Part shown: piece by piece, positions 2,884-23,106 of the stretch | How positions within the stretch are numbered: position 1 is the first letter of the stretch | Layout of the letters: the number at the start of each line of letters is the position of its first letter | Assembly: GCA_000993535.1 (NCBI GenBank) | Contig: LBWG01000017.1 | Location: 1-38,285 of the forward strand | DNA from: Candidatus Uhrbacteria bacterium GW2011_GWF2_39_13 | Lineage (GTDB): Bacteria; Patescibacteriota; Patescibacteriia; UBA9934; GWF2-40-263 | Reading direction: 5' to 3' | DNA length: 38,285 nt | The notes under the pieces: generated by a model | What the model saw: only the letters and a program-made list of their open reading frames with translations | Told to the model about the DNA's origin: nothing | Databases searched by the model: none | Translations under genes and position numbers: made by a program

Positions 2884-3957
2884 TTGAAAGAACTTATCCT
2901 TAAAAACCATTTAAATCTGCCGTTTATAACAAGGATGCTCAAGTGGCATTTTTCGTACTATATTCTCGGCAGGGGATACCCTGTAAGCGCTGGAGTATAT
3001 TTAACCGACACCTGCAACAGCCGTTGTATAATGTGTAATCTCTGGAAGAAAAAAAATCCATACACATATCCTATGGAAGAGCAGAAAGCCGCAATAGACG
3101 CGTTATCCGCAATGGGATGTTATTATTACTCCATAAGCGGAGGAGAACCGACACTTGTAAAAGACCTGAAGGAAAGGCTCAGATACGCGTCAGCTAAAAT
3201 TCCCTACGTACATCTCGTTACAAACGGTCTTTTATCGGAAGAAAAAATGGTGTCTGAAATAGTATCTACCGGGATAAAGGAAATAAGCATATCAATTGAC
3301 GGAACAGAAAAATTTCACAACGCACTGAGAGGAAGGGAAGACGGATTTCAGAAGGCGTTCAATACCTTGAAGCTTTATGCGGCACACTCAGATAAACTTC
3401 AGCTAACGGTCAACTCTATTCTGACAAAACGCAGTCTTTCCGAATTGAGAGAACTCAGAAAAATGCTTGATGATTTTCCGGGAGTTCATTATAAATATCT
3501 GCCACTGTCTGTACATGAATTATTTCAGAACGACGCAGGTATTGATAAAGCCTTTCCCGGCAACGACGCGTCCATAGATGAAATGGAAGCCTTTCTGAAC
3601 GAAGCAGCGGCGGACGACAGAAATGTCAATTCGAAGATATTCCTGAAAAAAGCAAAACTTTTTTTCCGGGGACAGGAGGATATTCTACCTGAACAGAAGC
3701 AATGCGTATATTCATATCATGCAGTGGAGTTCGGTCCTGACGCTTCAGTTTATCCATGCAGGACCGGAATGAACTTCGCGTCAGAGATTTCAGGTAAAAC
3801 CGATCTGAAAGAATTTTATTCATCCGCAAAATGCTCCAATATCCAGAAAGAATTAAAGTCCTGCAAAAGATGTCGCAATACAATGCCATTGTGCTATTAT
3901 GAGCCCAGATTGAATTTTCCAATAACAAATCTTGTAAAGTATTACTTTTCAAAATGA
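2884..3957 (+). CDS. Radical SAM protein with C-terminal Cys cluster (SPASM-like)
   Basis: TDTCNSRCIMCNLW (CxxxCxxC), SISGGEPT, C-terminal CVYSYHAVEFGPDASVYPCR...CSNIQKELKSCKRC. TTG start. Confidence 0.88.
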   Translation: MKELILKNHLNLPFITRMLKWHFSYYILGRGYPVSAGVYLTDTCNSRCIMCNLWKKKNPYTYPMEEQKAAIDALSAMGCYYYSISGGEPTLVKDLKERLRYASAKIPYVHLVTNGLLSEEKMVSEIVSTGIKEISISIDGTEKFHNALRGREDGFQKAFNTLKLYAAHSDKLQLTVNSILTKRSLSELRELRKMLDDFPGVHYKYLPLSVHELFQNDAGIDKAFPGNDASIDEMEAFLNEAAADDRNVNSKIFLKKAKLFFRGQEDILPEQKQCVYSYHAVEFGPDASVYPCRTGMNFASEISGKTDLKEFYSSAKCSNIQKELKSCKRCRNTMPLCYYEPRLNFPITNLVKYYFSK

Positions 3958-6263
3958 ACTTCATATTAAATATCATAAAGAAAATATACTGCCAGAAGCT
4001 GGAAGACTTCTGTGTCAGGCTTCTCTATTTTTTCAACACTATTGACACATATTTTATTGTATCGGGCTTCCTTACATATCTTTTTCTGTCGTATAACAGA
4101 GAGGTCTCTCCGCTGATACTGTTTCCTGTTTTAATACTGGCGATAACGGCGGCTTTCATTTCCGATTTTTATCCCTGGTTCGTTATATTTTCCCTCCCAT
4201 TAATAGTATTGAACGCCATAGGCATTGATATGCCTCTGAATGATATTTATGTTCTTCTGGTTTTGAATATTATTGTATTTTTTACTATTCAATTTGGACT
4301 GATGGGACTGCCCGACTCAATAGTCGCCAGAGACATAAAAGTGGCATTCATCAAGATGTACAATTCCCTTTTCACTATTGCGCCTACAACAGTTTCATTT
4401 GTGATGAGCGTGTTTTTCGGTTTTTTCCTTGCGTTCTCCTTAAATTCAGCAAATTACTGTAAAGACAAGAGCGATTATGCTGTACTTGCCTCTTTCTGGA
4501 TTTTGATTTTAGTTTCCGCGTTTATCACGAGATACCTAAGACCGAAAAATCATTTCACTAAATTTCACAAGCCCGATATACCGGAAAAACCGCTTTTCAA
4601 AAGGGTTCTCCTGCTTAATATAGATGGCGCCAGGAAAGATATTTTCGATAAACTCGTCCTTCCGTGCGTAAGAAAGATTATGACGGAAGGCTCCTATCAT
4701 CCCAAAGGCCTTGAGACCGTTTACAGAGCGCTTACAAATCCGGCTTTTGCCAGCATATACACCGGAACAATTCCAGAAATACACGGCGTAAAAGACAATA
4801 ATTTTGGGCAATCAATCAGAACAGAAGGATTGCCGGACATAGTCCCGACAATATCCTACGGTTCTATGCATGTACAACACTTCAATAAAAAATATTGGGA
4901 AACAAAAATAGTATCGCTCCCTGAACATTCCGTTTACAAATCCGATGACATAATGGTTGAATGGCTGAAAAAAGATCTTCTTGAAAGAAATGAAGTAAGA
5001 CTTTTCATCGCGGATTTCAGCGAGGCCGATTTTATCGCTCATGCTTATGGCAGCACTTCGAAAAGTTACAAAGACGCCCTTGAGCGGATTGATGGAAGAA
5101 TAGGCGGCATAATAGACTGGATGCGCAAAGAAAAACTTGCCGATGAGACAGCTGTAATAATATGTTCAGACCACGGCATATCAGCCATCGACCACAGCTA
5201 CCTTATCGCGGAATCAGAAAAATATGTCCCCTTCATCATGTGGGGAAAAGGCATAAAAAAAGGGTTTGAGATTACTCGTCCCGGTAAAATAATGGATATA
5301 TGCTGCACAATATCTTATCTTCTGGGAATGCGCTATCCTCTTGACTGCAGAGGGCAAGTTTTCACGGAGGCGCTGGAAAATCACGATAGAGAAATGGAGA
5401 CAGATAATTTTGTCTCAAGATTCAATTCTTTGAGCTATGAGGCGACAGCAGAAGATTATGCGAAGGAGAGGGTGGAAATCTATCATGGCGACAGTGCCTG
5501 GTGGCAAGACTGCCTGAAAAAACACGTTACAGCTCCCGATGAAGGATTGACCATACTGGACATAGGATGCGGAAGAGGTTTTGTCGCCGACATTTTTTTG
5601 TCGTCAGGGCTTAAAATAAAGCGTTTCGTATGCATGGATATTTCCAATGAAATACTTGATTGCTGCAAAAAGAAATTCGGAACTAACGAAACTTTTGAAT
5701 TTACAGACACTCTCACCAATCTTAACGGCAAATTTGATGTGATTGCGGTAAGTTCTGTCTTTCATCATCTTCACAGACCGGAAAAACTCGCCACCAGAAT
5801 CGATGAATTACTGAATTCAAACGGGTTTGTGATAGGCAGTCACGAACCGGATAAAACGCCTTTCCTGAAACTTCTTTTCAGACATGCGGCAACTTTATAC
5901 AAAATGATTGGCGGCGGTATATCCATAAACAACTCAGCCGTCGAAGAATTCAACAGACTTCTGAAAACCAAGTATCCCGCCGCATGTCCAGTCTGCCGGG
6001 AGGAAATACTCCAGATGGTCGAATATCATTCGCCCGTAGAGCAATACGACAGTTATGTTGACGCGGAAAGCGGTTTTATCCCGCATGAGTTTTTCAGAAA
6101 AGTATTTAGCGGATATGATATTATTCTGCTGGAAAACTATACGACTTTCTTTCACAGACCGCTACTCGAAAAACATAAAATCATTCAGAACGTTCTGAAA
6201 CTGGGTTTCAAGGTCTTTTCCGGCAAGGGAAATCTCTTCAGATATCTGATTAGGAAACACTGA
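3954..6263 (+). CDS. Membrane-anchored type I phosphodiesterase (alkaline phosphatase superfamily) fused to class I SAM methyltransferase
   Basis: N-terminal hydrophobic segments; LLLNIDGARKDIF, ALTNPAFASIYTGTIPEIHG, ADFSEADFIAHAYG, IICSDHGISAIDHS; then ILDIGCGRGFVADIF methyltransferase motif I. Confidence 0.85.
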   Translation: MNFILNIIKKIYCQKLEDFCVRLLYFFNTIDTYFIVSGFLTYLFLSYNREVSPLILFPVLILAITAAFISDFYPWFVIFSLPLIVLNAIGIDMPLNDIYVLLVLNIIVFFTIQFGLMGLPDSIVARDIKVAFIKMYNSLFTIAPTTVSFVMSVFFGFFLAFSLNSANYCKDKSDYAVLASFWILILVSAFITRYLRPKNHFTKFHKPDIPEKPLFKRVLLLNIDGARKDIFDKLVLPCVRKIMTEGSYHPKGLETVYRALTNPAFASIYTGTIPEIHGVKDNNFGQSIRTEGLPDIVPTISYGSMHVQHFNKKYWETKIVSLPEHSVYKSDDIMVEWLKKDLLERNEVRLFIADFSEADFIAHAYGSTSKSYKDALERIDGRIGGIIDWMRKEKLADETAVIICSDHGISAIDHSYLIAESEKYVPFIMWGKGIKKGFEITRPGKIMDICCTISYLLGMRYPLDCRGQVFTEALENHDREMETDNFVSRFNSLSYEATAEDYAKERVEIYHGDSAWWQDCLKKHVTAPDEGLTILDIGCGRGFVADIFLSSGLKIKRFVCMDISNEILDCCKKKFGTNETFEFTDTLTNLNGKFDVIAVSSVFHHLHRPEKLATRIDELLNSNGFVIGSHEPDKTPFLKLLFRHAATLYKMIGGGISINNSAVEEFNRLLKTKYPAACPVCREEILQMVEYHSPVEQYDSYVDAESGFIPHEFFRKVFSGYDIILLENYTTFFHRPLLEKHKIIQNVLKLGFKVFSGKGNLFRYLIRKH

Positions 6264-6265
6264 TT

Positions 6266-7786
6266 ATGAAAATAATATTCCCGGTCGTAGGCGCTGAAAA
6301 CATATCCGTAGCCTATCTCTCATCCGTTCTGAAAAAAGCAGGGCACACTGTAAAAGTCGCCTTTGACAGGTCGCTTTTCAACGACATGCAGTATTTTTCC
6401 GTCAAATTTCTAAGCAGGATATTCAGTGAAAAGAAAAGGATGGTTAAACAGATAATTCTCGAGAAACCGGATATCCTGGCTATGTCCGTTTTTACGGATA
6501 ATTACCAATGGGCGCTGGATGTTGTAAGAGAAGTCAGGAAACAGCATAAATGTATCACGGTCTGGGGCGGAATGCATCCCACCGCCTGCCCTGAAGAAGC
6601 GATTGCCCAAGAAGAGGTTGATTACATGATAATCGGTGAAGGCGAAGCGCCGTTTCTGGAACTCGTCGATGCACTTGAGAAAAATACGTCCATGAAAAAT
6701 ATTCAGAATCTCTGGTATCGGGAAAATGACGGCAATATCGTTAAAAATCCACCCCGGACATTAATGGACCCAAAAGATTTTCCTCCGGTCGATAAAACAG
6801 TTTATGAGAAGTTCATCCCAATGAAGGAATATTATCTGACGGTTACGTCAAAAGGCTGTATTGCAAAATGCAGTTACTGTCTTCAGAATTTTCTGTGGAA
6901 CTGGGAAAAGGAACAACAGATAGGTAAATTTCTGCGCGAAAAAAACGTTGACATGGTTATAGACGAATTCAGGGAAATGAAGTCTCGTTACGGCATTAAA
7001 TACATTGACATTAAAAACAATGTACTGTCTGGAAATAAGCAGTGGATGGATGAGTTTCTGAAACGCTATGCGGAAGAAATAAAACTTCCATTTCGGATTA
7101 TGGGACACCCTCTACTTTTCCAGGAAGATCTCGCTGAAAAATTAAAAAAGGCGGGATGCCATCATATTCAAATCGGCATAGAGTCCATGAACTCTGATGT
7201 AAGAAAAAATGTTCTCTTCAGAAATGAAAGCAATGAACAGATAAAGAAAGCGCTGGACAGTATCGACAAGGCGGGAATAAATTTTTCTGCCGATCTTATC
7301 GTTGGCCTACCGGGTGAAACTGAAAATGATCTGATTGTCAGTGTCAAAATCCTCTCCGAATATAAACATCTCATAAGAGCGTCCATATTCTGGCTCCAGT
7401 ATCTCCCGAGTGTCGCCATAACCAGAATGGCAATTGAAAAAGGTTATATTGACGGAAAAAATGAAGAGCTTATAAATAAAGGTCTGCAGAATAATTATCT
7501 TTCGACAGGCTCGCCGATGGAGGCTGACAGAATGCGCATACTGAAAACTTATCATATCATATTTCGCCTTCTGCCAATAATACCCCAAAAAATTGTCAAT
7601 CTCATCATGAATACCGGCATTTACCATATTTTTCATTACCTCCCTTTTCAGACGGCATTCATAATAGCCGTGGACGTTTTCGTCTCATATATCAGAAATG
7701 ATTATTACGCGAAATGGATAATGAAATGGTACTTTAAACAGATATGGAAGCATATTATGGGAAAAATAGAAACAATATCAGAATGA
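6266..7786 (+). CDS. B12-binding-domain radical SAM protein
   Basis: GGMHPTACPEEAIAQEEVDYMIIGEGE; SKGCIAKCSYCLQNF (CxxxCxxC); ADLIVGLPGET. Confidence 0.9.
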   Translation: MKIIFPVVGAENISVAYLSSVLKKAGHTVKVAFDRSLFNDMQYFSVKFLSRIFSEKKRMVKQIILEKPDILAMSVFTDNYQWALDVVREVRKQHKCITVWGGMHPTACPEEAIAQEEVDYMIIGEGEAPFLELVDALEKNTSMKNIQNLWYRENDGNIVKNPPRTLMDPKDFPPVDKTVYEKFIPMKEYYLTVTSKGCIAKCSYCLQNFLWNWEKEQQIGKFLREKNVDMVIDEFREMKSRYGIKYIDIKNNVLSGNKQWMDEFLKRYAEEIKLPFRIMGHPLLFQEDLAEKLKKAGCHHIQIGIESMNSDVRKNVLFRNESNEQIKKALDSIDKAGINFSADLIVGLPGETENDLIVSVKILSEYKHLIRASIFWLQYLPSVAITRMAIEKGYIDGKNEELINKGLQNNYLSTGSPMEADRMRILKTYHIIFRLLPIIPQKIVNLIMNTGIYHIFHYLPFQTAFIIAVDVFVSYIRNDYYAKWIMKWYFKQIWKHIMGKIETISE

Positions 7787-9294
7787 AAAAAATTATGGGC
7801 AGAAGAATACTTTTTTCCGTACCCGAAAGCGGCACAGTTATAAAACAGGCACAGGCTCTGAACGGGCTCGGATGGGAAATAATAATCACTCCCAATCTCG
7901 AAAAAGTTTTCGGAAATTCCAATATTCCGTTCAGGACAGTAAATGAATTTACAGGTTTTGAAAAAGAATTTCCATTCCCTCCGACCCTGCATCCTGAAAT
8001 GGAAGCGGCGTTGACACTTGATACGGCAAACAGAATAGATATCGTATATGATATTACCTACAGTCTGGAAAGAGGCAATGATGTCGGAGGACATACATTA
8101 CTGGCTCTCGCCGTTAAAGGAAACCGTATTCCTGTGGCTTCAGAAGAAGATATGGATACGCTTATCGACCTGCTCAAAAATGGAACTGTTATCGATGAAA
8201 CAAGAAAAACATTTATCAGCAGAACTTTAGATAAAATCATATCACATTACCAGTCTCTGAAGAACGATAGAGGTGATTATGTTTCCGGCAATTTATTCCT
8301 GGAACTGGAAAACGGTGAAAATCCTTATCAGACGCCTGCATATCTTTACAGCGCGTCTGACGATGACGCGCTTGCGATACATAAATTTCAATTGCTCTCT
8401 GCCAATGTTCCGTGCTTTACGAATACCGCGGATATGGACTGTATCCTCCATACGATCTGCCTGGCGGCAGAGGCCTTTAAAAAAGCTTTTGGCAAAGTCC
8501 CTTTCATAGCGATATCAGCTAAACATGGCAATCCATGCGGAATGGCGGTGGATTGGAACAGTCCTGAAAAATGCATTGAAAAATCATTATGGGGAAGTCC
8601 TCTGGCAGTGTGGGGCGGTGAATTTATCGTAAACTTTCCGATAGATGACTTGCTTGCGGAAAAACTTGTTTCGAGTCCTTTGCGCGAAAAGAAATATAAC
8701 AGCCCATATTGGATGCTTCATATAATAGCGGCCCCTGAATATTCAGAAAAAACCCTTGCCGTTCTGTCAAAGGGAAAAAGCAGAAAGATTTTCAGAAATC
8801 CGGCACTTTCCGAGCCCAGCCTTAACCAGAACCCTCTGAAGCGTTTTGTAAGAGGCGGTTTTATGAAACAGCCAGCTTGCAGTTATGTTCCGGCTTTTAA
8901 AGACTTGTCAGGGATTTCTGATATCAACACTCTGACTGACATGATAATTTCATGGTCTGTATCGTTCAGTTCTTTTCACGGCGGGAACGAAGTAGCGCTT
9001 TCATCGGCCAACAGGCTTATTGGTGTTGGCGGAGGACCGTCAACGCTTGACGCGGCGCAGATAGCAGTTTTGCGAGCTCGTGATAATGGACACGATCCGA
9101 AGGGTTCAGTTTTTGCGGCAGACGCCTTTTTCCCGTTCACTGATGCACCTGAAATTTTGTATTCCGGAGGCTGTATTGCGGGTTCCGTTCCGGAAGGCGG
9201 CAAAAATGATAAACTTGTTAAAAATTATTTTGCTGAAAAAAATGTTTCCGTCGCCTATCTCCCCGAACAATATCGCGGTTTCATACGTCATTAA
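7783..9294 (+). CDS. PurH-like protein (AICAR transformylase/IMP cyclohydrolase paralog), divergent
   Basis: RRILFSVPESG...TLHPEMEAAL...NDVGGHTLLALAVKG (MGS/IMPCH-like); GENPYQ; AISAKHGNPCGMAV; FAADAFFPFTDAPE...VPEGGKNDKLV...YRGFIRH. Start set to ATG 7783 (ATGA overlap) rather than 7744. Confidence 0.85.
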   Translation: MKKIMGRRILFSVPESGTVIKQAQALNGLGWEIIITPNLEKVFGNSNIPFRTVNEFTGFEKEFPFPPTLHPEMEAALTLDTANRIDIVYDITYSLERGNDVGGHTLLALAVKGNRIPVASEEDMDTLIDLLKNGTVIDETRKTFISRTLDKIISHYQSLKNDRGDYVSGNLFLELENGENPYQTPAYLYSASDDDALAIHKFQLLSANVPCFTNTADMDCILHTICLAAEAFKKAFGKVPFIAISAKHGNPCGMAVDWNSPEKCIEKSLWGSPLAVWGGEFIVNFPIDDLLAEKLVSSPLREKKYNSPYWMLHIIAAPEYSEKTLAVLSKGKSRKIFRNPALSEPSLNQNPLKRFVRGGFMKQPACSYVPAFKDLSGISDINTLTDMIISWSVSFSSFHGGNEVALSSANRLIGVGGGPSTLDAAQIAVLRARDNGHDPKGSVFAADAFFPFTDAPEILYSGGCIAGSVPEGGKNDKLVKNYFAEKNVSVAYLPEQYRGFIRH

Positions 9295-9303
9295 GGAAGA
9301 ATT

Positions 9304-10779
9304 ATGAGAGTTGCACTTATACAGGCAAGGATTACTGACGCAAATACATTCCTTACCCCTTTGGGATTATTGTATATTGCCGCATATCTTCGCAGGCAGG
9401 AACATCAGGTAATAGTTCTTGATCAGGACTGTGACGTAAATGACCCTATGCCGCTGCTTTCTAATTTTCAGCCGGAAGTGATAGGTTTTTCCGTAATGAC
9501 CACCTATTACAGAAGAACTGACCGGATGATAAGAAAAATCAGAAAAGAATTGCCGGGCGCCGTAATCTGCGCGGGAGGAATACATCCCAGCGCGCTGCCT
9601 GAAAGGACAGTTCAGGAACTTGGCGGCGGACTTGATTTCATCATAAGAGGCGAAGGAGAGCTGACTCTTACCGAAGTCTTGAGAAGAATGGAAGCGGGAG
9701 AAGATATCCATACCGTCAGGGGAACTTATTTTTATCAGAACGCCAAACTAACCGATAACGGACGGGCAGAGGCATGCCCGAACCTTGATCTGCTGCCGTT
9801 TCCAGCAAGAGATTTGCTGGATATGTCCAAATACATGACCTACCCCGGTTTCATAAAAGGCATACCTCTGGAAAAAACAACAAATCTAATATCAAGCAGA
9901 GGCTGTCCCGCCCAGTGTATCTATTGCGGCAATCAGGTATTGTTTGACAGAAACATCAGAAAGCGTTCCGCCGATAATGTCATCGGTGAAATCGAAAGTC
10001 TCGTCGAAAATTACAATATCGGCGGTTTTGGTTTTTCGGATGATAATTTTATGGCCGACAGCAAGCGGGTTGTTGAATTCTGTGAAAAACTTATAGACAA
10101 AAAATGGAACTTGAAATGGGTATGCAGCACAAGGGCTCTGAATATAAAGGAAGATCTTACGAGATTGATGTACAGGGCCGGATGCCGTCAATATGAGATA
10201 GGCGTTGAATCCGGTAGCGATAAGATACTTAAATATATGAAAAAAGGTCTCACAACAGAACAGATTGCCGAAGGATATGACATAGCAAAGAAAAACGGCA
10301 TGAGGCGCATGGCGTCTTTTATCATAGGCTTCCCTACTGAAACGGAAGAGGACATAAAACTCACTGAGAAGTTCGCAAAAAAAATAAAACCTGATTTCGC
10401 CTCCTTCTTTTTCCTTACCCCCTACCCGGGAACAGAACTTTACTCAATGGCACTGAAAAACGGCTGGATACCGGAGAAACACGAATTCGGAGAAGACTGG
10501 ACAATCCGCCAGGCGGAAGAGCCGCTGATGGCAATTGAATTCACGCCGAAGCAGCTGAAGTTTTTCAGGGCGCACCTTCAGAACGCTTTCTTCTGGAAAA
10601 ACTTCTTTTCAGGTATCAACATACCGTTTTATTCCCTTATGGCGTGGTCACTGCTTGTGAATCCCAAAATACTTTTTAAGTCAGTCTTCCAGGTCATAAA
10701 GACCCGCAGATTCGACTACCTTGCAGAAAGCGCATTAGCCGCATACAGATATAAAATCGAGAAATGCGGGCGCAAATAG
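9304..10779 (+). CDS. B12-binding-domain radical SAM protein (BchE-like architecture)
   Basis: AGGIHPSALPERTVQELGGGLDFIIRGEGE; SSRGCPAQCIYCGNQ; ASFIIGFPTET. Confidence 0.9.
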   Translation: MRVALIQARITDANTFLTPLGLLYIAAYLRRQEHQVIVLDQDCDVNDPMPLLSNFQPEVIGFSVMTTYYRRTDRMIRKIRKELPGAVICAGGIHPSALPERTVQELGGGLDFIIRGEGELTLTEVLRRMEAGEDIHTVRGTYFYQNAKLTDNGRAEACPNLDLLPFPARDLLDMSKYMTYPGFIKGIPLEKTTNLISSRGCPAQCIYCGNQVLFDRNIRKRSADNVIGEIESLVENYNIGGFGFSDDNFMADSKRVVEFCEKLIDKKWNLKWVCSTRALNIKEDLTRLMYRAGCRQYEIGVESGSDKILKYMKKGLTTEQIAEGYDIAKKNGMRRMASFIIGFPTETEEDIKLTEKFAKKIKPDFASFFFLTPYPGTELYSMALKNGWIPEKHEFGEDWTIRQAEEPLMAIEFTPKQLKFFRAHLQNAFFWKNFFSGINIPFYSLMAWSLLVNPKILFKSVFQVIKTRRFDYLAESALAAYRYKIEKCGRK

Positions 10780-10911: not shown

Positions 10912-11838
10912 ATGAAATGCCCTTTCTGCAGCACCTCCAGAAGTCCCGGTTCTCATGAAAAGGATCTGGACACGGAGGACGCTTTAAATACAGTAAGACA
11001 ACTCGCTGAGATGGGAACACGCATAATACATTTTTCAGGAGGAGAACCGACTCTGCGTAAAGACCTCCAAGAAATCGCGGCTCACGCGACTGAATGCGGC
11101 ATGATTGTCTCAATGACGACAAACGGCTCAGCATCGGAAGCGCAAATGTCCAGATTACTTGATATTGATCTGATACGGGTAAGCATTGACGGTACTGAGA
11201 TCTTTCATGATGAACACAGACAGACGCCAGGGGCTTATGCAAAAGCAATAAACATTTTGAAATACTTGAAATCCAAAGGAAAGCATCCACAGATAACAAC
11301 CGTTTATACGGAAGATTCAAGATATGAAACACTGGCAGAGCTGGCAGAAACGGCACGTGATATCGGGGTAAACATTACTCTCAATGTGCAGGGTAGAAAT
11401 GTTAATATGGGGAAATCCGATGAGGATGGAGAACAAATAAATAAACTTCATTCGGAGTTTTTCCGCAAATATCTTGATGTCCTCACTACTCTCAAAAAAA
11501 AGTTTGGCAAGGTTATAACAGATTCCGAACCCATCCCGACTATAATAAAATATGGCGGACTGAATATTTTCGGATGCAGGGCCATGGATATTGCTGTCAC
11601 AATAAAGTCTGACGGAGCCGTATCTCTCCCATGCAATGGCCTTGGAATAATAAGCGAAAAAGGCGTATTGAAGGATATCTATTACAGCGACAAAGCATAT
11701 GAAATCAGAAAAATGCAGGGTAAATACCCAATCTGCAAAGGATGTTATATCAAATGCATGTGCTCGGCAAGCGCCATGTTGAAATTTTCCGGGCTCTATG
11801 GAATTATAAATTCATACATAAAAAATATATTAAAGTGA
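10912..11838 (+). CDS. Radical SAM protein with SPASM-like C-terminus; N-terminal start unresolved (frame open from 10810)
   Basis: The ORF-track ATG lies inside the Fe-S motif. In-frame upstream sequence reads ...GRRIPLYCEWEITSTCNMKCPFC, so the true N-terminus is upstream. Confidence 0.85.
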   Translation: MKCPFCSTSRSPGSHEKDLDTEDALNTVRQLAEMGTRIIHFSGGEPTLRKDLQEIAAHATECGMIVSMTTNGSASEAQMSRLLDIDLIRVSIDGTEIFHDEHRQTPGAYAKAINILKYLKSKGKHPQITTVYTEDSRYETLAELAETARDIGVNITLNVQGRNVNMGKSDEDGEQINKLHSEFFRKYLDVLTTLKKKFGKVITDSEPIPTIIKYGGLNIFGCRAMDIAVTIKSDGAVSLPCNGLGIISEKGVLKDIYYSDKAYEIRKMQGKYPICKGCYIKCMCSASAMLKFSGLYGIINSYIKNILK

Positions 11839-11846
11839 GATGCTTC

Positions 11847-12899
11847 ATGAAAGGCAGAATCAAAACAATAATCAACGCCAGAAAAGCAGCATTAAAACTG
11901 CTGGAATGTAAATTGACCGGGCGCCGCATACCGGTAAGAGTCAGTCTGCTTATAACCAAATACTGCAATCTCAGATGTTTTTACTGTTACGCTAAAGACA
12001 CACTGGATAATAAAGACATTAAAGAACCATCTCTTGATGATCTTAAAAACATAGTTGATCAGATATATGATTGCGGGTGTCGCTGGATCAATATACTCGG
12101 CGGCGAACCCCTGATAAGAAACGATGCCGGGGAATTCATTGACTATGCTCACAATAAAGGCATGCTTCTGGAAATCACAACCAATGGTTTCTTCATACGG
12201 CAGAAAATAGAAGCACTGAAGAAGGTCGATCATCTCTGTGTAAGTCTTGACGGCGACAAGGAAGCCAATGACAAAAGCAGAGGCAAGGATTCCTTTGAAA
12301 AAATCATTGATGGAATAAAATTTGCCGTCGAAAACGGTCTGCGCGTCAGAGTACATGCCACATTATGTAAGCGGACAATGGCAGAAAAATCACTGAGTTT
12401 TCTTTCGGACTTCTGTAAAAGCTACAATATAAAATTCAATTATTCCGAAAACGGTTTGCCGGGAATTGAAGAACTTGACCCCGATTTTCTGCTGACTGAA
12501 GAAGAAACCCTTAATTTTTACAAACAATACAGGAAACTTAAAAAACAGGGGTATCCTATTGTGAGTTCAGATGTCGCCGTCGATTATGTTGCCCAATGGC
12601 CCCTGAAAAATATTACCACGATTTACCGCAAGGATCTTCCGGAAATAAAATCCGACACTTACTACCCCTGTATGCTGGGACGAAACCAGTGCTTCATAAG
12701 CAGTAACGGAGATGTTTATCCCTGCACAAAAAAATGGGGTTATGGGAAAAATATTTATGAAGTCGGCTTCAAGGAAGCATGGGAATATCTTGCAGGCCTC
12801 GACTGTGTCGCCTGTAAAGAACTCGGAACTATAGAACAGAGCGTAATCCTCGGCCTGAATCCTAAAGCTATTTTGAATGCAATACTGAACTTCAGCTGA
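11847..12899 (+). CDS. Radical SAM/SPASM-like protein
   Basis: ITKYCNLRCFYCYAKD; ILGGEPL; SSNGDVYPCTKKWGYG...CVACKEL. ATG at 11847 preferred over 11742, which overlaps the upstream gene. Confidence 0.9.
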   Translation: MKGRIKTIINARKAALKLLECKLTGRRIPVRVSLLITKYCNLRCFYCYAKDTLDNKDIKEPSLDDLKNIVDQIYDCGCRWINILGGEPLIRNDAGEFIDYAHNKGMLLEITTNGFFIRQKIEALKKVDHLCVSLDGDKEANDKSRGKDSFEKIIDGIKFAVENGLRVRVHATLCKRTMAEKSLSFLSDFCKSYNIKFNYSENGLPGIEELDPDFLLTEEETLNFYKQYRKLKKQGYPIVSSDVAVDYVAQWPLKNITTIYRKDLPEIKSDTYYPCMLGRNQCFISSNGDVYPCTKKWGYGKNIYEVGFKEAWEYLAGLDCVACKELGTIEQSVILGLNPKAILNAILNFS

Positions 12900-12909
12900 A
12901 AGAAAACTT

Positions 12910-13521
12910 ATGGTCTGCAAATACTGTATAGATGAAAAGGCGGCCTGTAAAATAAAGGTCGCCCGCATAGAAACAAAATGCAAGTATCATTGTTGCCCCG
13001 GACTGGTCTATTCCTACGACAAAATTGCGCCTGCGGGAATATGCAGAGAGCTTTTTTATTCCGTATATCCGGAATGTCTCTCCCTTCTTTACAGTGGAAA
13101 ACCACGCAAACTTCTGCCCAGAAAAAAAGGTATGACAAAAATAATGGCATCATGCCCGGCACCGGATGGCGTAAAAGTGGAAATATCTGTAAAAGATATC
13201 TTTCCCCCTCCCGTGAGAATTATCAAGGAAATCACAGAGGAAATATGTAAGTTTATTTACCGTCCTTTAGATGGACACTTCAGGAGAGTATTCATAAGAA
13301 TTATTGACAAAGGCAATGCCTGCCCTAAAAACTTTCTTCCCGGAAGCATTTTCGAATTTAATACTATTAAAAAAGATGAATTATGTCCTGCCGGTTTTGC
13401 CGCGATTTATCCATATATCAAAACATTCTACAGCACTCATAAGGATGGCGAAATGCCGGAAATAAAAATACACTGTCCAGATTATGTCGGCGTTACTTAC
13501 GAAATAAAGGATATTAACTAA
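12910..13521 (+). CDS. Cys-rich protein with two tandem TIGR04076-like modules
   Basis: Module 1: CKIKVARIETKCKYHCCPGLVYSYDKIAPAGICRELFYSVYPECLSLLYSG...ASCPAPDGVKVEI. Module 2: RRVFIRIIDKGNACPKNFLPGSIFEFNTIKKDELCPAGFAAIYPYIKTFYS...IHCPDYVGVTYEI. Confidence 0.65.
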   Translation: MVCKYCIDEKAACKIKVARIETKCKYHCCPGLVYSYDKIAPAGICRELFYSVYPECLSLLYSGKPRKLLPRKKGMTKIMASCPAPDGVKVEISVKDIFPPPVRIIKEITEEICKFIYRPLDGHFRRVFIRIIDKGNACPKNFLPGSIFEFNTIKKDELCPAGFAAIYPYIKTFYSTHKDGEMPEIKIHCPDYVGVTYEIKDIN

Positions 13522-14009
13522 TGGGAGCTACCGATTTTTTTTGTCATTCATGCACGTGCGGTAGTTTCAAATTAAATGGAAACGGCACAGTCCGCGAAAT
13601 GAAGGATATTCTGCCGGAAAATATCTGCCCTCTGCTTTTTCACAGCGTCTATGCTTACATACTCACTCTTGTAAACGGAGGCTGGATGAACTGGGTCGGA
13701 CACGAAACTCATGTTATCGTGAATTGCCCTTACACAAACGGTGTAGCTGTATATGTCAAAGGAAATAATGTACCGCATACTATTGAAATAGAATTGATTA
13801 AGACTGGAGTCTGTCCCAAGGCATATAAACTCGGACAAGCTTTTATTTTCAGCACAAGACCTGAAAATATGCTTTTAATGAGCATGATTGAAAAAGCATT
13901 TCCCGATATCCTGATTTTTTCCGAGGAAAACAAATGCCAATCCAAAACTTATCTTCATAATTTTGATAACCGTGAGATATCTTTTGAAATAGAATATACA
14001 GGCAGGTAA
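13521..14009 (+). CDS. Second Cys-rich TIGR04076-like protein
   Basis: FCHSCTCG...ENICPLLFHSVYAYILTLVNGGWMNWVGHETHVIVNCPYTNGVAVYVKG, then IEIELIKTGVCPKAYKLGQAFIFS. Start overlaps the previous stop (TAATG). Confidence 0.55.
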   Translation: MGATDFFCHSCTCGSFKLNGNGTVREMKDILPENICPLLFHSVYAYILTLVNGGWMNWVGHETHVIVNCPYTNGVAVYVKGNNVPHTIEIELIKTGVCPKAYKLGQAFIFSTRPENMLLMSMIEKAFPDILIFSEENKCQSKTYLHNFDNREISFEIEYTGR

Positions 14010-14013
14010 AATC

Positions 14014-14811
14014 ATGAACTACCACAATTTGCTGAATGCTAAAAGAGCGCTCATAACAGGTGCGTCACGGGGTGTGGGCAGAGCAACAGCACTGCTCTTC
14101 GGAAAGTACAAAATGAGACTGGGACTCATCGCACGCGATATTGAAAAGTTGAACGCCCTCGCTTCCGAAATCAATAGTACGGGCGGGGAAGCGTTTGCCA
14201 TCCAATGCGATCTATCTGAAACTGAATCCGTCAATCATGCGGCTTCATGTTTTCTGAAGCGCTTCGGAACTCCCGATTTTCTGATCAATAATGCGGGAAT
14301 CGCGGTAAGAGATTACTGGCGGAATATAGATATTTCGACAGAACTGAAAATTACGTCCGTAAACTATATAGCCCCTTTGCTTCTTATAAGATTTTTTCTT
14401 CCAGATATGCTTAAACAAAACAAAGGTCATATAATAAATATCAATTCGATTGCCAGTTATTATGCCGCTCCCTATCAGGGTGCTTACTGTGCGAGCAAAA
14501 GCGCACTTCTGGCATACAGCGAAAGCCTTGCTTATGAACTTGAAAAAACAAAAGTCAATATCAGTAATATATGTCCAGGCCCGATTGACACAGATTTTCT
14601 GAATGGTAAAAATTACGAGAAGTTCAGGAAAGATGCAGGAATAGTCAAAGCGGAACAGATAGCTGAAGCAATATTGAAAGTAATCGCTACTCCAGAAGAA
14701 ATGATTTTTATTTCTCCCGCATGGAAAGTGCTTGCTTTAAAAATTGCGAAGTTCAAGCCTTCTTTTTTTAGACGGATATTTGAGTTGAAAAACCTTTCTC
14801 CCGGGAAATGA
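14014..14811 (+). CDS. Short-chain dehydrogenase/reductase
   Basis: RALITGASRGVGRATALL; LINNAGIA; SIASYYAAPYQGAYCASKSALLAYSESLAYEL (YxxxK). Confidence 0.92.
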   Translation: MNYHNLLNAKRALITGASRGVGRATALLFGKYKMRLGLIARDIEKLNALASEINSTGGEAFAIQCDLSETESVNHAASCFLKRFGTPDFLINNAGIAVRDYWRNIDISTELKITSVNYIAPLLLIRFFLPDMLKQNKGHIININSIASYYAAPYQGAYCASKSALLAYSESLAYELEKTKVNISNICPGPIDTDFLNGKNYEKFRKDAGIVKAEQIAEAILKVIATPEEMIFISPAWKVLALKIAKFKPSFFRRIFELKNLSPGK

Positions 14812-18602: not shown

Positions 18603-20396
18603 ATGTTAGACACTCTGAATAAAATCTGGCAGATATTAAACATCAAAGAAAGATATTCTTTAATAGCGGTTTCCATTCTTATTTTTATCGGTTCAGCGCT
18701 GGAACTTGCCGGTATCGGTATGCTTCTTCCCTTTATAGCTCTGCTGAGCGATGTTGAAAATCTCACGAAAAAATGGTATCTGAAGCTCTTCAGTGATTTT
18801 TTCAAATGCGAGAGTCCTGAATCATTACTGACAATAATGGCTGTCATTCTAATCATATTTTTCATGGCAAAAAACTTTTTCCTCTTCACCCTGACATTTA
18901 TCCAGTCAAAATTCATCAATCATCTGTACAGAAGAATATCTGACACTCTTTTCAAAACTTATATGCACAGCTCTTACGCGTTTCATTTGCAGAAAAACAG
19001 CGCTCATCTTCTGAAAAACCTGCAGGCGGTATATTTTCTTTGCCGGGTGCTGATGAGTTCCGTGATGATACTTTTTTCCGAACTGCTTTTGATATCACTG
19101 ATAGCATGTTTCCTTGTTATTTTATATCCGTACTCTTCGACAGTCATCATATCGCTTATGATTGTATTCAGCTCTCTTTTCTATTATTTCATGAGAAAGA
19201 AAATTAAATACTGGGGAGAAGTCCAGCACGTACAGGAAAAATTTGCCATACAGCACGTAAAACAGGGCCTTGCCGGGATAAAAGAGGCCAAACTGATGGG
19301 ATGCGAAGACCATTTCTGCGATCTTTATGAAAATAATCTCTCAATGATGGCAAAATCTTTTTTTTACCAGGATGTTCTTAATCAGTCCCCGCGACTCTAT
19401 ATAGAAACACTGAGTGTGGTTTTATGTCTTTCTTTTATGATTTATTATTTTCAGACCGGCATGAAGCCGGGAGATGTTTTCATTGAATTTTCGCTTCTTG
19501 CCATAGTAGCCATAAGACTGATGCCCTCCATGAACAGGATAGTATCGGCGCTGGTGCTTATAAGATTTCAACTGCCCAGCTTGCATTTAGTCCATGCAGA
19601 CATATCATCCCTTCAGTTAAAACATGGTAGAGTTAGTGATGAAAAGAAAATTGCCTTCAATAATGTCATCGAACTTGAGAATGTCTCTTTCCGCTATGAA
19701 GGAACTGCGGACGACACACTGAAACACATATCGGTCTCGGTAAAGAAGAACAGTTCAGCGGCTTTTGTCGGCGCTACCGGCGCGGGAAAAACGACTATTG
19801 TTGATATCATCCTTGGACTTTTGAAGCCGCAAAGCGGAAAGGTTATTGTAGATGGATACGACATTCATGATTTTTTGTCATCATGGCAGAAGAGCATAGG
19901 ATATGTGCCGCAGGATATTTCTCTCGCCGATACATCAATAAAGGAAAATATCGCCTTCGGTATTCTCCCTGAAAATGTTGATAACAAAAGATTGGAAAGA
20001 GCAGTCAAGATATCCATGCTTGAAGATTTTATCAGGGAACTTCCGGAAGGACTTGACACTGTCATAGGAGAAGATGGGGTCAGGCTTTCAGGTGGACAGC
20101 GTCAGCGTATCGGCATAGCGAGGGCCCTTTATAACGATCCGGAAATAATTGTACTTGACGAAGGAACGGCATCTTTGGACAATCTCACTGAAGATGCTGT
20201 CATTAAAGCATTGGATCGTTTAAACCGAGAAAAGAAAACTATAATAATCGTCGCTCACAGGCTCTCAACAGTCAGGAGATGCGACAAAATCTACTTTGTT
20301 AAAAACGGACAAATAGCCGCAACTGGAACTTATGATGAATTGATTAAGTCTTCAGATGACTTTGCGCAGATGCTTACAGCGGGCCAGCTCAATTGA
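18603..20396 (+). CDS. ABC transporter, fused permease/ATPase (PglK/MsbA-like lipid-linked saccharide exporter)
   Basis: N-terminal transmembrane region; VGATGAGKTTIVDIILG Walker A; LSGGQRQRIGIARAL; IIVLDEGTASLD. Confidence 0.92.
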   Translation: MLDTLNKIWQILNIKERYSLIAVSILIFIGSALELAGIGMLLPFIALLSDVENLTKKWYLKLFSDFFKCESPESLLTIMAVILIIFFMAKNFFLFTLTFIQSKFINHLYRRISDTLFKTYMHSSYAFHLQKNSAHLLKNLQAVYFLCRVLMSSVMILFSELLLISLIACFLVILYPYSSTVIISLMIVFSSLFYYFMRKKIKYWGEVQHVQEKFAIQHVKQGLAGIKEAKLMGCEDHFCDLYENNLSMMAKSFFYQDVLNQSPRLYIETLSVVLCLSFMIYYFQTGMKPGDVFIEFSLLAIVAIRLMPSMNRIVSALVLIRFQLPSLHLVHADISSLQLKHGRVSDEKKIAFNNVIELENVSFRYEGTADDTLKHISVSVKKNSSAAFVGATGAGKTTIVDIILGLLKPQSGKVIVDGYDIHDFLSSWQKSIGYVPQDISLADTSIKENIAFGILPENVDNKRLERAVKISMLEDFIRELPEGLDTVIGEDGVRLSGGQRQRIGIARALYNDPEIIVLDEGTASLDNLTEDAVIKALDRLNREKKTIIIVAHRLSTVRRCDKIYFVKNGQIAATGTYDELIKSSDDFAQMLTAGQLN

Positions 20397-20434
20397 AAAC
20401 TAAAACCATAAAGCTAACACAGGGAGATATTATA

Positions 20435-21502
20435 ATGGGAAAGAAGCTCAGGATTGCCCTCACTGGTTGCGGTAGAATAGCCCAGAGACATTCCGAACTG
20501 CTGGGGAAGAGTTTAATTGCCGGGGCGGAACTTGTGGCTGTTTCTGATATAAACAGAGAAAAGGCTGAAGATTGCGGAAAAAAATATGCTGTTCCATACT
20601 ATGAGGACTTTAATGTTATGATGGAGAAGGAGAAACCGGATGTGGTTTCGGTATTGACACCCAGCGGACTTCATGCGGAACACGTAATAGCTCTTTCAAA
20701 GTATGGCAAACATATAATTGTAGAAAAGCCAATGGCGTTAACTCTTAACGACGCCGATAATATGATCAGAGCATGTGACTTAAACGGGTGCAGGCTTTTC
20801 GTTGTGAAACAGAACCGTTTCAATTTGCCGGTCGTAAAGCTCAGGGAGGCAATGGACAGTTCCCGTTTTGGAAAAATAGTACTCGGGACAGTTCGTGTAA
20901 GATGGTGTAGGCCTCAGAAATATTACGACGCTGACGCATGGCGCGGAACCTGGGCGCTGGATGGCGGAGTTTTATCCAATCAGGCAAGTCATCATATAGA
21001 TCTGCTTGAATGGATGCTCGGAGATGTTGAAAGCGTTTTTGCGAAAAGTACTACAGCACTAGTCAATATAGAAGCGGAAGACACCGCCGTGGTAGTATTG
21101 AAATTTGTTAGCGGCGCTTTGGGAATTATTGAGGCAACTACTGCCACCCGCCCTAAAGATCTTGAAGGCTCAATCAGCATACTCGGAGAAAAAGGAAGCG
21201 TCGTTATAGAAGGCTTCGCCGTCAATGAACTTAAGACTTGGAATTTCACGCAGATGCCTCCTGATGAAAATGATGTTATCAAAAAATATTCGGTAAACCC
21301 TCCCGACGTTTACGGCTTCGGTCACAAGGCATATTACGAACATGTTGTTGACTGTATAAACAATAATCGCCATCAGTTGGTTGACGGTCTTGAGGGCAGG
21401 AAAAGTCTCGAACTGATATCCGCGATATATGAATCAATCGAAACAGGAAAAGAGGTTTTTCTGAGATTCAAACCGAGTAAATGCAAGCTGGGACATAAAT
21501 AA
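20435..21502 (+). CDS. Gfo/Idh/MocA oxidoreductase (WbpB/WlbA-like)
   Basis: LRIALTGCGRIAQRHSELL; VSVLTPSGLHAEHVIALSKYGKHIIVEKPMALT. ATG 20435 preceded by AGGGAGA; the 20393 start lies in the upstream gene overlap. Confidence 0.88.
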   Translation: MGKKLRIALTGCGRIAQRHSELLGKSLIAGAELVAVSDINREKAEDCGKKYAVPYYEDFNVMMEKEKPDVVSVLTPSGLHAEHVIALSKYGKHIIVEKPMALTLNDADNMIRACDLNGCRLFVVKQNRFNLPVVKLREAMDSSRFGKIVLGTVRVRWCRPQKYYDADAWRGTWALDGGVLSNQASHHIDLLEWMLGDVESVFAKSTTALVNIEAEDTAVVVLKFVSGALGIIEATTATRPKDLEGSISILGEKGSVVIEGFAVNELKTWNFTQMPPDENDVIKKYSVNPPDVYGFGHKAYYEHVVDCINNNRHQLVDGLEGRKSLELISAIYESIETGKEVFLRFKPSKCKLGHK

Positions 21503-21520
21503 TAGAAAGGCTGAGTTTCA

Positions 21521-21982
21521 ATGACCCCCTCTATCAAAAATATCGATATTGTTGATGTTGAATTCGGTGAAAATGTAACTGTTGTAAAGCCTGTCAATCT
21601 CTACGGCTGCAGGATTGGCGACGGAACCTTTGTCGGCCCATTCGTCGAGATACAGAGAAATGCCGTTGTCGGCAAAAATTGCAAGATACAGTCCCATGCG
21701 TTCATTTGCGAACTTGTGGAAATAGGCGATAATTGTGTAGTTTCCCACGGCGTTATGTTTATCAACGATCTTTTCAAAACAGGCAAACCAGCTTTTCGTG
21801 ATAAAACATTATGGAAGGCCACAAAAATAGGTTCAAATGTTCTTTTCGGTTCAAACTCGACAATACTTCCAGTAACAATTGTCGATGGAGTAGTCATCGG
21901 AGCCGGTTCTGTTGTTACAAAAAACCTGCTGATTAAAGGAATCTATGCGGGAAACCCGGCGAAACTTTTAAGAAAACTTTAA
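21521..21982 (+). CDS. Left-handed beta-helix N-acetyltransferase (WbpD/WlbB-like)
   Basis: Hexapeptide-repeat pattern: IGDGTFVGPFVEIQRNAVVGKNCKIQSHAFICELVEIGDNCVVSHGVMFIND...VVIGAGSVVTKNL..GIYAGNPAKLLR. Confidence 0.9.
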   Translation: MTPSIKNIDIVDVEFGENVTVVKPVNLYGCRIGDGTFVGPFVEIQRNAVVGKNCKIQSHAFICELVEIGDNCVVSHGVMFINDLFKTGKPAFRDKTLWKATKIGSNVLFGSNSTILPVTIVDGVVIGAGSVVTKNLLIKGIYAGNPAKLLRKL

Positions 21983-21996
21983 ATTCGGAGTGATTT

Positions 21997-23106
21997 ATGA
22001 ACGTCCCATTTGTTGATTTAAAATGTCAATACGCTAATATCAAAGACAAAATTGATTCTGCAATAAAAAACGTGGTAGAGGAAACTGCCTTTATCCGAGG
22101 AAAATACGTTGAGAACTTTGAAAAAAGTTATGCGTCTGAATATGGCGTAAAAAACTGTGTAAGTGTCGGCAATGGTACAGAAGGCATTTACATAGCACTG
22201 AAAATGCTGGGCATCGGCCCCGGCGATGAAGTCATAACTACCGCATGCAGTTGGATTGCCACTTCGGAAACCATCACACAGACTGGGGCAAAACCTGTTT
22301 TTGTTGACATAAACCCTGACTGTTATACAATAAATACATCTCTGATAAGAGGTAAAATCACTAAGAAAACTAAAGCAATTATTCCTGTGCATTTTTACGG
22401 ACAGCCTGCCGATATGGATAAAATAATGGCAATTGCTCAGGAATATGGGCTTTATGTTATTGAAGATTGCGCACAGGCGCACTTTGCGATGTTTAGAGGG
22501 AAAAAGGTCGGAACTATCGGTAATGTCGGGGTGTTCAGTTTTTATCCCAGCAAAAATCTCGGAGCATATGGCGATGCGGGCTGCATAATTACCGATAATG
22601 ATGAACTCGCTTATAAGATGCGCCTTTATGCAAACCATGGCTCCGTAAATAAGGTTGATCACTTGTTCGAAGGTATAAACAGCAGAATGGACGGACTTCA
22701 GGCTTCAGTGCTTTTGACAAAACTTCCTTATATTCATGAATGGAACAAAAGACGATATGAAAACGCGATGATTTATAATTCTCTTCTGAAGGATTTTGAA
22801 AAAATAAAAATTCCTGTCGTAAGAGATGAATGCCAGCACGTGTTTCATGTCTATGCGATAAGAGCGGAACAGAGAGACGAACTAAAGGAATTCCTTTCTT
22901 CAAATGGCATTCAAACGGTGCTTCACTATCCCAGAGCACTGCCGTTTCTTTCGGCATATAAGTATTTGAATCACGATAAAGATGATTTCCCTGTAGCTTA
23001 CAAACACCAGACGGCAATCTTGTCGCTTCCGATGTATCCGGAACTTGAAAGAGCACAGATTGAATATGTTGTGAAAAAAATAAAAGAGTTCTACAAGTCA
23101 AAATGA
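21997..23106 (+). CDS. DegT/DnrJ/EryC1/StrS aminotransferase (WbpE-like)
   Basis: VPFVDLKCQY; SVGNGTEGIYIALKMLGIGPGDEVITTACSWIATSE; VIEDCAQAH; FSFYPSKNLGAYGDAGCIITD. Confidence 0.93.
   Translation: MNVPFVDLKCQYANIKDKIDSAIKNVVEETAFIRGKYVENFEKSYASEYGVKNCVSVGNGTEGIYIALKMLGIGPGDEVITTACSWIATSETITQTGAKPVFVDINPDCYTINTSLIRGKITKKTKAIIPVHFYGQPADMDKIMAIAQEYGLYVIEDCAQAHFAMFRGKKVGTIGNVGVFSFYPSKNLGAYGDAGCIITDNDELAYKMRLYANHGSVNKVDHLFEGINSRMDGLQASVLLTKLPYIHEWNKRRYENAMIYNSLLKDFEKIKIPVVRDECQHVFHVYAIRAEQRDELKEFLSSNGIQTVLHYPRALPFLSAYKYLNHDKDDFPVAYKHQTAILSLPMYPELERAQIEYVVKKIKEFYKSK

Follow-up and report, generated by a model that had tools for sequence, protein, structure and literature searches.

A divergent two-domain PurH paralog in a glycan and radical SAM gene cluster of Lentisphaeria, a candidate N-formyltransferase for an amine other than AICAR

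Results

A PurH homolog over both domains

The gene at positions 7783-9294 of the window (the whole stretch of 38,285 nucleotides that was analysed) encodes a homolog of PurH over both domains, and on sequence grounds it forms, with a single ortholog, a two-member subfamily that is distinct within the known PurH superfamily. The residue pattern gives good support to a changed substrate and suggests that formyl transfer and the use of folate were retained. We lean, with a little better than even confidence, towards a neofunctionalised PurH that would act as a folate-dependent N-formyltransferase on an amine other than AICAR. To our knowledge nearly all organisms have PurH, and it hardly ever serves more than one function.

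The reading frame is uninterrupted over 503 codons and the protein belongs to the AICARFT/IMPCHase superfamily (PF01808, 79.6 bits with a Pfam cut-off of 25). Its scores for the two PurH equivalog models lie far below the cut-offs (TIGR00355, 88.4 versus 528; PRK00881, 127.3 versus 402), and PurH chains were its sole matches among solved structures (PDB sequences). The N-terminal domain, the weaker-matching part, was tested apart, and in a profile-profile comparison the two paralogs matched 26 canonical PurH N-domains with a probability of 98.5%. A structure model obtained from 23 sequences was of middling confidence (pLDDT 68, pTM 0.43) and, given that it does not predict the domain arrangement, was used for the domain folds only. 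The 21 best Foldseek matches of this model were all PurH; next came ForH and dCMP deaminases and, further down the ranking, an MGS domain. Its whole-chain TM-scores of 0.23 to 0.27 (by query length) are low, as they should be for a model that leaves the arrangement of the domains unpredicted. A model from the two-sequence alignment of the paralogs (pLDDT 41) was discarded.

Table 1. Location of the PurH-like gene, its domains and motifs, and neighbouring genes (positions in the window; residues in the PurH-like protein).
Feature	Residues (aa)	Position	Strand	Basis or remark
PurH-like gene, 503 aa, intact		7783..9294	+	ORF, profile matches, alignment, profile-profile comparison, Foldseek
N-terminal IMP-cyclohydrolase-like (MGS-fold) domain of the PurH-like protein	1-150
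C-terminal AICAR-transformylase-like domain of the PurH-like protein	about 165 to 503
FPPTLHP	65-71	7975..7995	+	versus GRVKTLHP; R64 to F, catalytic K66 to P; TLHP kept
DVGGHTLLALAVK	100-112	8080..8118	+	versus DIGG...AAK; D125 and K137 equivalents kept
ENGENPYQ	176-183	8308..8331	+	versus RYGENPHQ; R208 to E, Y209 to N
KHGNPCG	247-253	8521..8541	+	transformylase catalytic Lys and His kept
VGGGPST	415-421	9025..9045	+	versus GAGQxSR loop; Gln and Arg lost
AADAFFPFTD	445-454	9115..9144	+	folate-side motif, including D546 equivalent, kept
B12-binding radical SAM protein, upstream		6266..7786	+	stop overlaps the ATG of the PurH-like gene by 4 nt
B12-binding radical SAM protein		9304..10779	+	9 nt downstream of the PurH-like gene
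Radical SAM/SPASM protein		10912..11838	+
Radical SAM/SPASM protein		11742..12899	+
Two-domain TIGR04076 protein, 203 aa		12910..13521	+	42.0 bits, cut-off 33; related to the G479 copy
TIGR04076 protein, 162 aa		13521..14009	+	36.4 bits, cut-off 33
Short-chain dehydrogenase		14014..14811	+
Gfo/Idh/MocA oxidoreductase, hexapeptide transferase, DegT aminotransferase (amino-sugar biosynthesis set)		20393..23106	+	same run

Origin of the window

The assembly is chimeric and the window is a Lentisphaeria contaminant, partly binned, in a reduced-genome bin. Tetranucleotide usage splits the 53 contigs into a reduced-genome bulk (C1-C3, C5-C7, C9-C13 and others) and a set of Lentisphaeria contigs (C4, C8, C15, C17, C21-C27 and others), and the window contig, C17, correlates at 0.94-0.96 with C4 and C8 and at 0.44-0.58 with the bulk. 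Prepilin-like proteins, which we take to be typical of Lentisphaeria, are encoded on C4, and the XseA protein of the window shows 55-66% identity to a large Verrucomicrobiota clade, whose class (200 genomes) we infer to be Lentisphaeria. A search of the bin for an SSU rRNA gene gave none. The assembly has no PF01808 gene besides the PurH-like gene, and the family is missing from nearly all relatives of the bin. The lack of a canonical purH, in the bin as in its relatives, was dropped as evidence once tetranucleotide usage had revealed a mixed bin; as the Lentisphaeria genome is only partly included, nothing follows from the gene's being the sole purH there. Neither the housekeeping transformylase of the window's host nor its PurO was found in the contigs of this partial genome. 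One relative of the bulk genome has, at locus L002 (G024:C1:632423-632569), an ORF of about 216 aa that contains the PurH N-terminal domain only, and no transformylase part was found beside it in the DNA fetched there.

Purine synthesis in Lentisphaeria

A match was found in 183/200 Lentisphaeria genomes, and the matching ORF was nearly always of the AICARFT-only kind, about 373 aa long; PurO, the archaeal-type IMP cyclohydrolase (PF07826), was present in 20/20 genomes tested. The full-length ortholog of the PurH-like protein occurs in one of the 200 genomes (G479; 46% identity, residues 2-503). That genome is among the 20 with PurO and has exactly two PF01808 genes, the paralog and an ordinary 373-aa transformylase, which adjoins a phosphoribosyltransferase-like gene. 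With an ordinary AICAR transformylase and PurO at hand, purine synthesis does not need the paralog, in agreement with the proposal of an earlier note on this DNA that the gene is a PurH paralog outside purine synthesis.

The last two purine steps thus appear to be split between separate proteins throughout a bacterial class (e.g. G479:C118:35502-36098 and G479:C21), with PurO tested in the 20 genomes; PurO-like genes have been reported in only 22/1266 bacteria (PMC6797443). Another split form of purH was seen in many IMG/VR viral contigs (loci L148-L204, e.g. L148, L152 and L186), where a transformylase ORF (about 314 aa) comes first and a separate cyclohydrolase ORF (about 193 aa) second, so that the usual domain order is reversed.

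Altered and retained residues

The window protein and its ortholog were aligned with 26 canonical PurH and 27 AICARFT-only proteins, with residues numbered by the avian/human PurH count. The residues of IMP cyclohydrolase are K66, Y104, D125 and K137, and AICAR is contacted by R208, Y209, K267, H268 and R589 (PMC3261824). All named cyclohydrolase, AICAR-contact and transformylase positions were invariant in 26/26 canonical PurH, and the transformylase positions also across the 27 AICARFT-only proteins. We further assumed a role in AICAR recognition for the Arg of GAGQxSR (residue 452, by counting along the avian chain) and a catalytic role in the transformylase for N431/432.

In the transformylase domain both paralogs keep K267, H268, N431/432, N212, N240, D546 and FFPF, among them the catalytic Lys-His pair, the Asn and the FFPFxD motif on which a folate-dependent N-formyltransferase is recognised by sequence. 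Two of the AICAR contacts are lost, R208 being E/L and Y209 N/W in the two proteins; in both, F316 is replaced by W, R452 by T, the Gln of GAGQ by P, and the Ser and Arg of PGGSxR by G and N. In the N-terminal domain the equivalents of Y104, D125 and K137 are kept, K66 is Pro and R64 is Phe in both paralogs, and the STGGT phosphate loop is gone.

Every motif reading of the earlier note was borne out by this alignment: formyl-transfer motifs kept as KHGNPCG and FFPFxD, KTLHPK changed to PTLHPE, RYGEN to ENGEN and GAGQxSR to GVGGG-PST, the D and K of DIGG...AAKN retained, and AICAR-binding residues altered. Its reading of MRHFRH as YRGFIRH was also correct, but the change is milder than it looks, since the R589 column still holds an Arg, owing to an insertion that displaces the tail. 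The losses of the STGGT loop, R64 and PGGSxR go beyond that reading.

The 53 housekeeping proteins share 50 invariant transformylase columns; both paralogs keep 28 of these, all the catalytic columns included, and 85 residues are common to the pair and found in none of the 53. This is more than expected by chance and the pattern indicates a changed substrate with kept chemistry rather than random decay, even if some substitutions could represent drift after loss of function given the very long branches of both paralogs.

Phylogeny and search for further members

The window protein and its ortholog formed a clade of their own (100/100), on a long branch, outside both canonical PurH and the AICARFT-only clade, so that the pair does not group with PurH in the tree; the attachment point of the clade is unsafe because of the long branches. 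No further ortholog was found in the scan of genome contigs, which gave only a canonical verrucomicrobial PurH, in viral contigs, or in 348 sister-class genomes at E <= 1e-20; 394 Verrucomicrobiota genomes contained canonical types only, and plasmids and phages, among the matches listed, only canonical-type PurH of less than 28% identity. No publication on this subfamily was found in the open-access literature.

Gene neighbourhood and the TIGR04076 companion

The PurH-like gene is one of 27 consecutive genes on the same strand (1070-31461), spaced mostly by -4 to +27 nt. This run encodes glycosyltransferases, DegT aminotransferases, methyltransferases, an epimerase, a Gfo/Idh oxidoreductase together with a hexapeptide transferase, an ABC transporter, two TIGR04076 proteins and several radical SAM/SPASM proteins. 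Several of these genes fit an amino-sugar or surface-glycan cluster, and the ortholog too is located in a large radical SAM/glycan cluster; the glycan/radical SAM operon described in the earlier note is upheld. Its statement that the window has no other purine gene agrees with our result that, among the window proteins scanned, no other purine gene was found, PurC-, PurB- and PurA-like genes included. Within the run, the two radical SAM/SPASM ORFs at 10912-12899 overlap by 97 nt, and the start of the second is probably annotated too far upstream. Positions 3954-6263 encode a single 769-aa protein with phosphodiesterase/sulfatase-like and SAM methyltransferase domains and N-terminal hydrophobic segments.

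At the ortholog's locus a radical SAM/SPASM gene precedes a 192-aa TIGR04076 gene, which lies directly upstream of the ortholog with a 4 nt overlap, and an iron-containing alcohol dehydrogenase gene lies downstream. The TIGR04076 copy is the only one found in this 3.8-Mb genome; the TIGR04076 pair of the window is located 3.6 kb downstream of the PurH-like gene. Scored as whole proteins, the G479 copy reached 38.3 bits and the window copies 42.0 and 36.4 bits (NCBIfam cut-off 33), but the local scores of the genome scan were below the cut-off (24.5 bits for the 203-aa window protein), so that all three are divergent members. Given that TIGR04076 passes the cut-off in only 42/200 genomes of the class, its association with the PurH-like gene is unlikely to be due to chance, with two loci as the whole sample. 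Apart from TIGR04076 the two clusters have only generic radical SAM and sugar genes in common. The TIGR04076 proteins (window 12910-14009; L128 4142-4720) have repeated ICPxxF...YPY and CPAG / CPD motifs, and one window gene and the G479 copy have a two-domain form. The literature search gave nothing on TIGR04076 function.

Discussion

Comparison with known systems

The window protein resembles PurH/ATIC (PF01808, TIGR00355, PRK00881) in its two-domain order, whole-length homology, KHxNPCG, the Asn of SNxxV and FFPFxD, but is without the AICAR-contacting Arg and Tyr, the GAGQxSR Arg, Lys66 and the phosphate loop, is only 24-28% identical, belongs to a separate clade and lies in a glycan/radical SAM cluster. 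The AICARFT-only proteins (PRK07106 type, about 373 aa, housekeeping in Lentisphaeria) share the transformylase domain and its catalytic residues; they differ in having no N-terminal domain and in keeping R208, Y209 and R452, and they form another clade, which places the window protein outside this group. ForH of the formycin pathway (PDB 6nko) is likewise related to PurH, has been recruited to a specialised pathway and matches the N-terminal domain in structure, but its 216-aa chain is a stand-alone cyclohydrolase-like domain whereas the window protein has both domains. For the O-antigen sugar N-formyltransferases (formyl_trans_N fold, PF00551) both reaction and genomic setting are established, and the window protein may share the two, but the fold is unrelated; none of the window proteins scanned against Pfam matched PF00551. 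Regarding PurH paralogs with new functions and N-formyl sugar enzymes, formycin was the only directly relevant precedent found in the open-access literature.

Proposed function and alternatives

From the kept Lys-His pair, catalytic Asn and intact FFPFxD motif we propose that the C-terminal domain would use 10-formyl-tetrahydrofolate to formylate an amine, although loss of the Ser and Arg of PGGSxR could weaken folate binding. The loss of AICAR contacts and of the N-domain phosphate loop suggests a rebuilt site for an acceptor that is not AICAR and that probably has no ribose 5'-phosphate or is held differently. This acceptor would probably be made within the cluster, where amino sugars and radical SAM products could both be available, and its class is a guess as long as generic radical SAM and sugar genes are all that the two clusters share besides TIGR04076. 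The product would probably be part of a surface glycan or a radical-SAM-made metabolite, in a pathway that would also use the TIGR04076 protein. The N-terminal domain, having lost Lys66 and the phosphate loop though Tyr104, Asp125 and Lys137 are kept, is probably no longer an IMP cyclohydrolase and may be structural, or act on a different substrate or in a related ring closure.

If instead both half-sites were active, the amine would be formylated and the ring then closed with a neighbouring carboxamide, so that a natural product would come to bear a purine-like or pyrimidinone heterocycle. The equivalents of Y104, D125 and K137 retained in both orthologs and the match of the N-domain model to ForH speak for this, and formycin biosynthesis is a precedent for a recruited set of Pur-like enzymes (PMC8724604); with K66, R64 and the STGGT loop lost in both orthologs and no PurC-, PurB- or PurA-like genes among the window proteins scanned, we regard it as quite unlikely. 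It is also unlikely, if a reading to be taken seriously, that the fold was kept for another use, as an inactive or regulatory pseudo-enzyme (e.g. in folate sensing or scaffolding) or for a non-formyl reaction: long branches and the loss of many invariant residues speak for it, but two proteins of only 46% identity have both kept the folate-side motif and the catalytic Lys, His, Asn and Asp.

That the gene is an ordinary, fast-evolving PurH of the host's purine synthesis would agree with its being the sole PF01808 gene in the bin, but the bin is chimeric and incomplete, R208, Y209, R452 and K66 are lost here and invariant in 26/26 PurH, and Lentisphaeria use the 373-aa transformylase with PurO, both of which G479 has alongside the paralog; this makes it very improbable. 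A decaying pseudogene or a sequence artefact, which the high divergence might suggest, is scarcely credible in view of the intact frame, the tight operon-like spacing and an independent intact ortholog with 85 shared specific residues, and is refuted unless both copies are silent.

Our preferred reading, a folate-dependent N-formyltransferase for a non-AICAR amine, has a bolder extension that we put forward tentatively and consider rather doubtful: the protein may be the first N-formyltransferase of PurH fold to act on a non-nucleotide amine and the founder of a family which, together with TIGR04076 and radical SAM proteins, would make a formylated group of a surface glycan or secondary metabolite in Lentisphaeria. 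Genes of this kind may be annotated as purH by automatic pipelines, and they could therefore be miscounted as evidence for purine prototrophy. If the reading is true, TIGR04076 would gain a function-bearing partner and the AICAR transformylase fold would prove able to supply formyl groups outside nucleotide synthesis.
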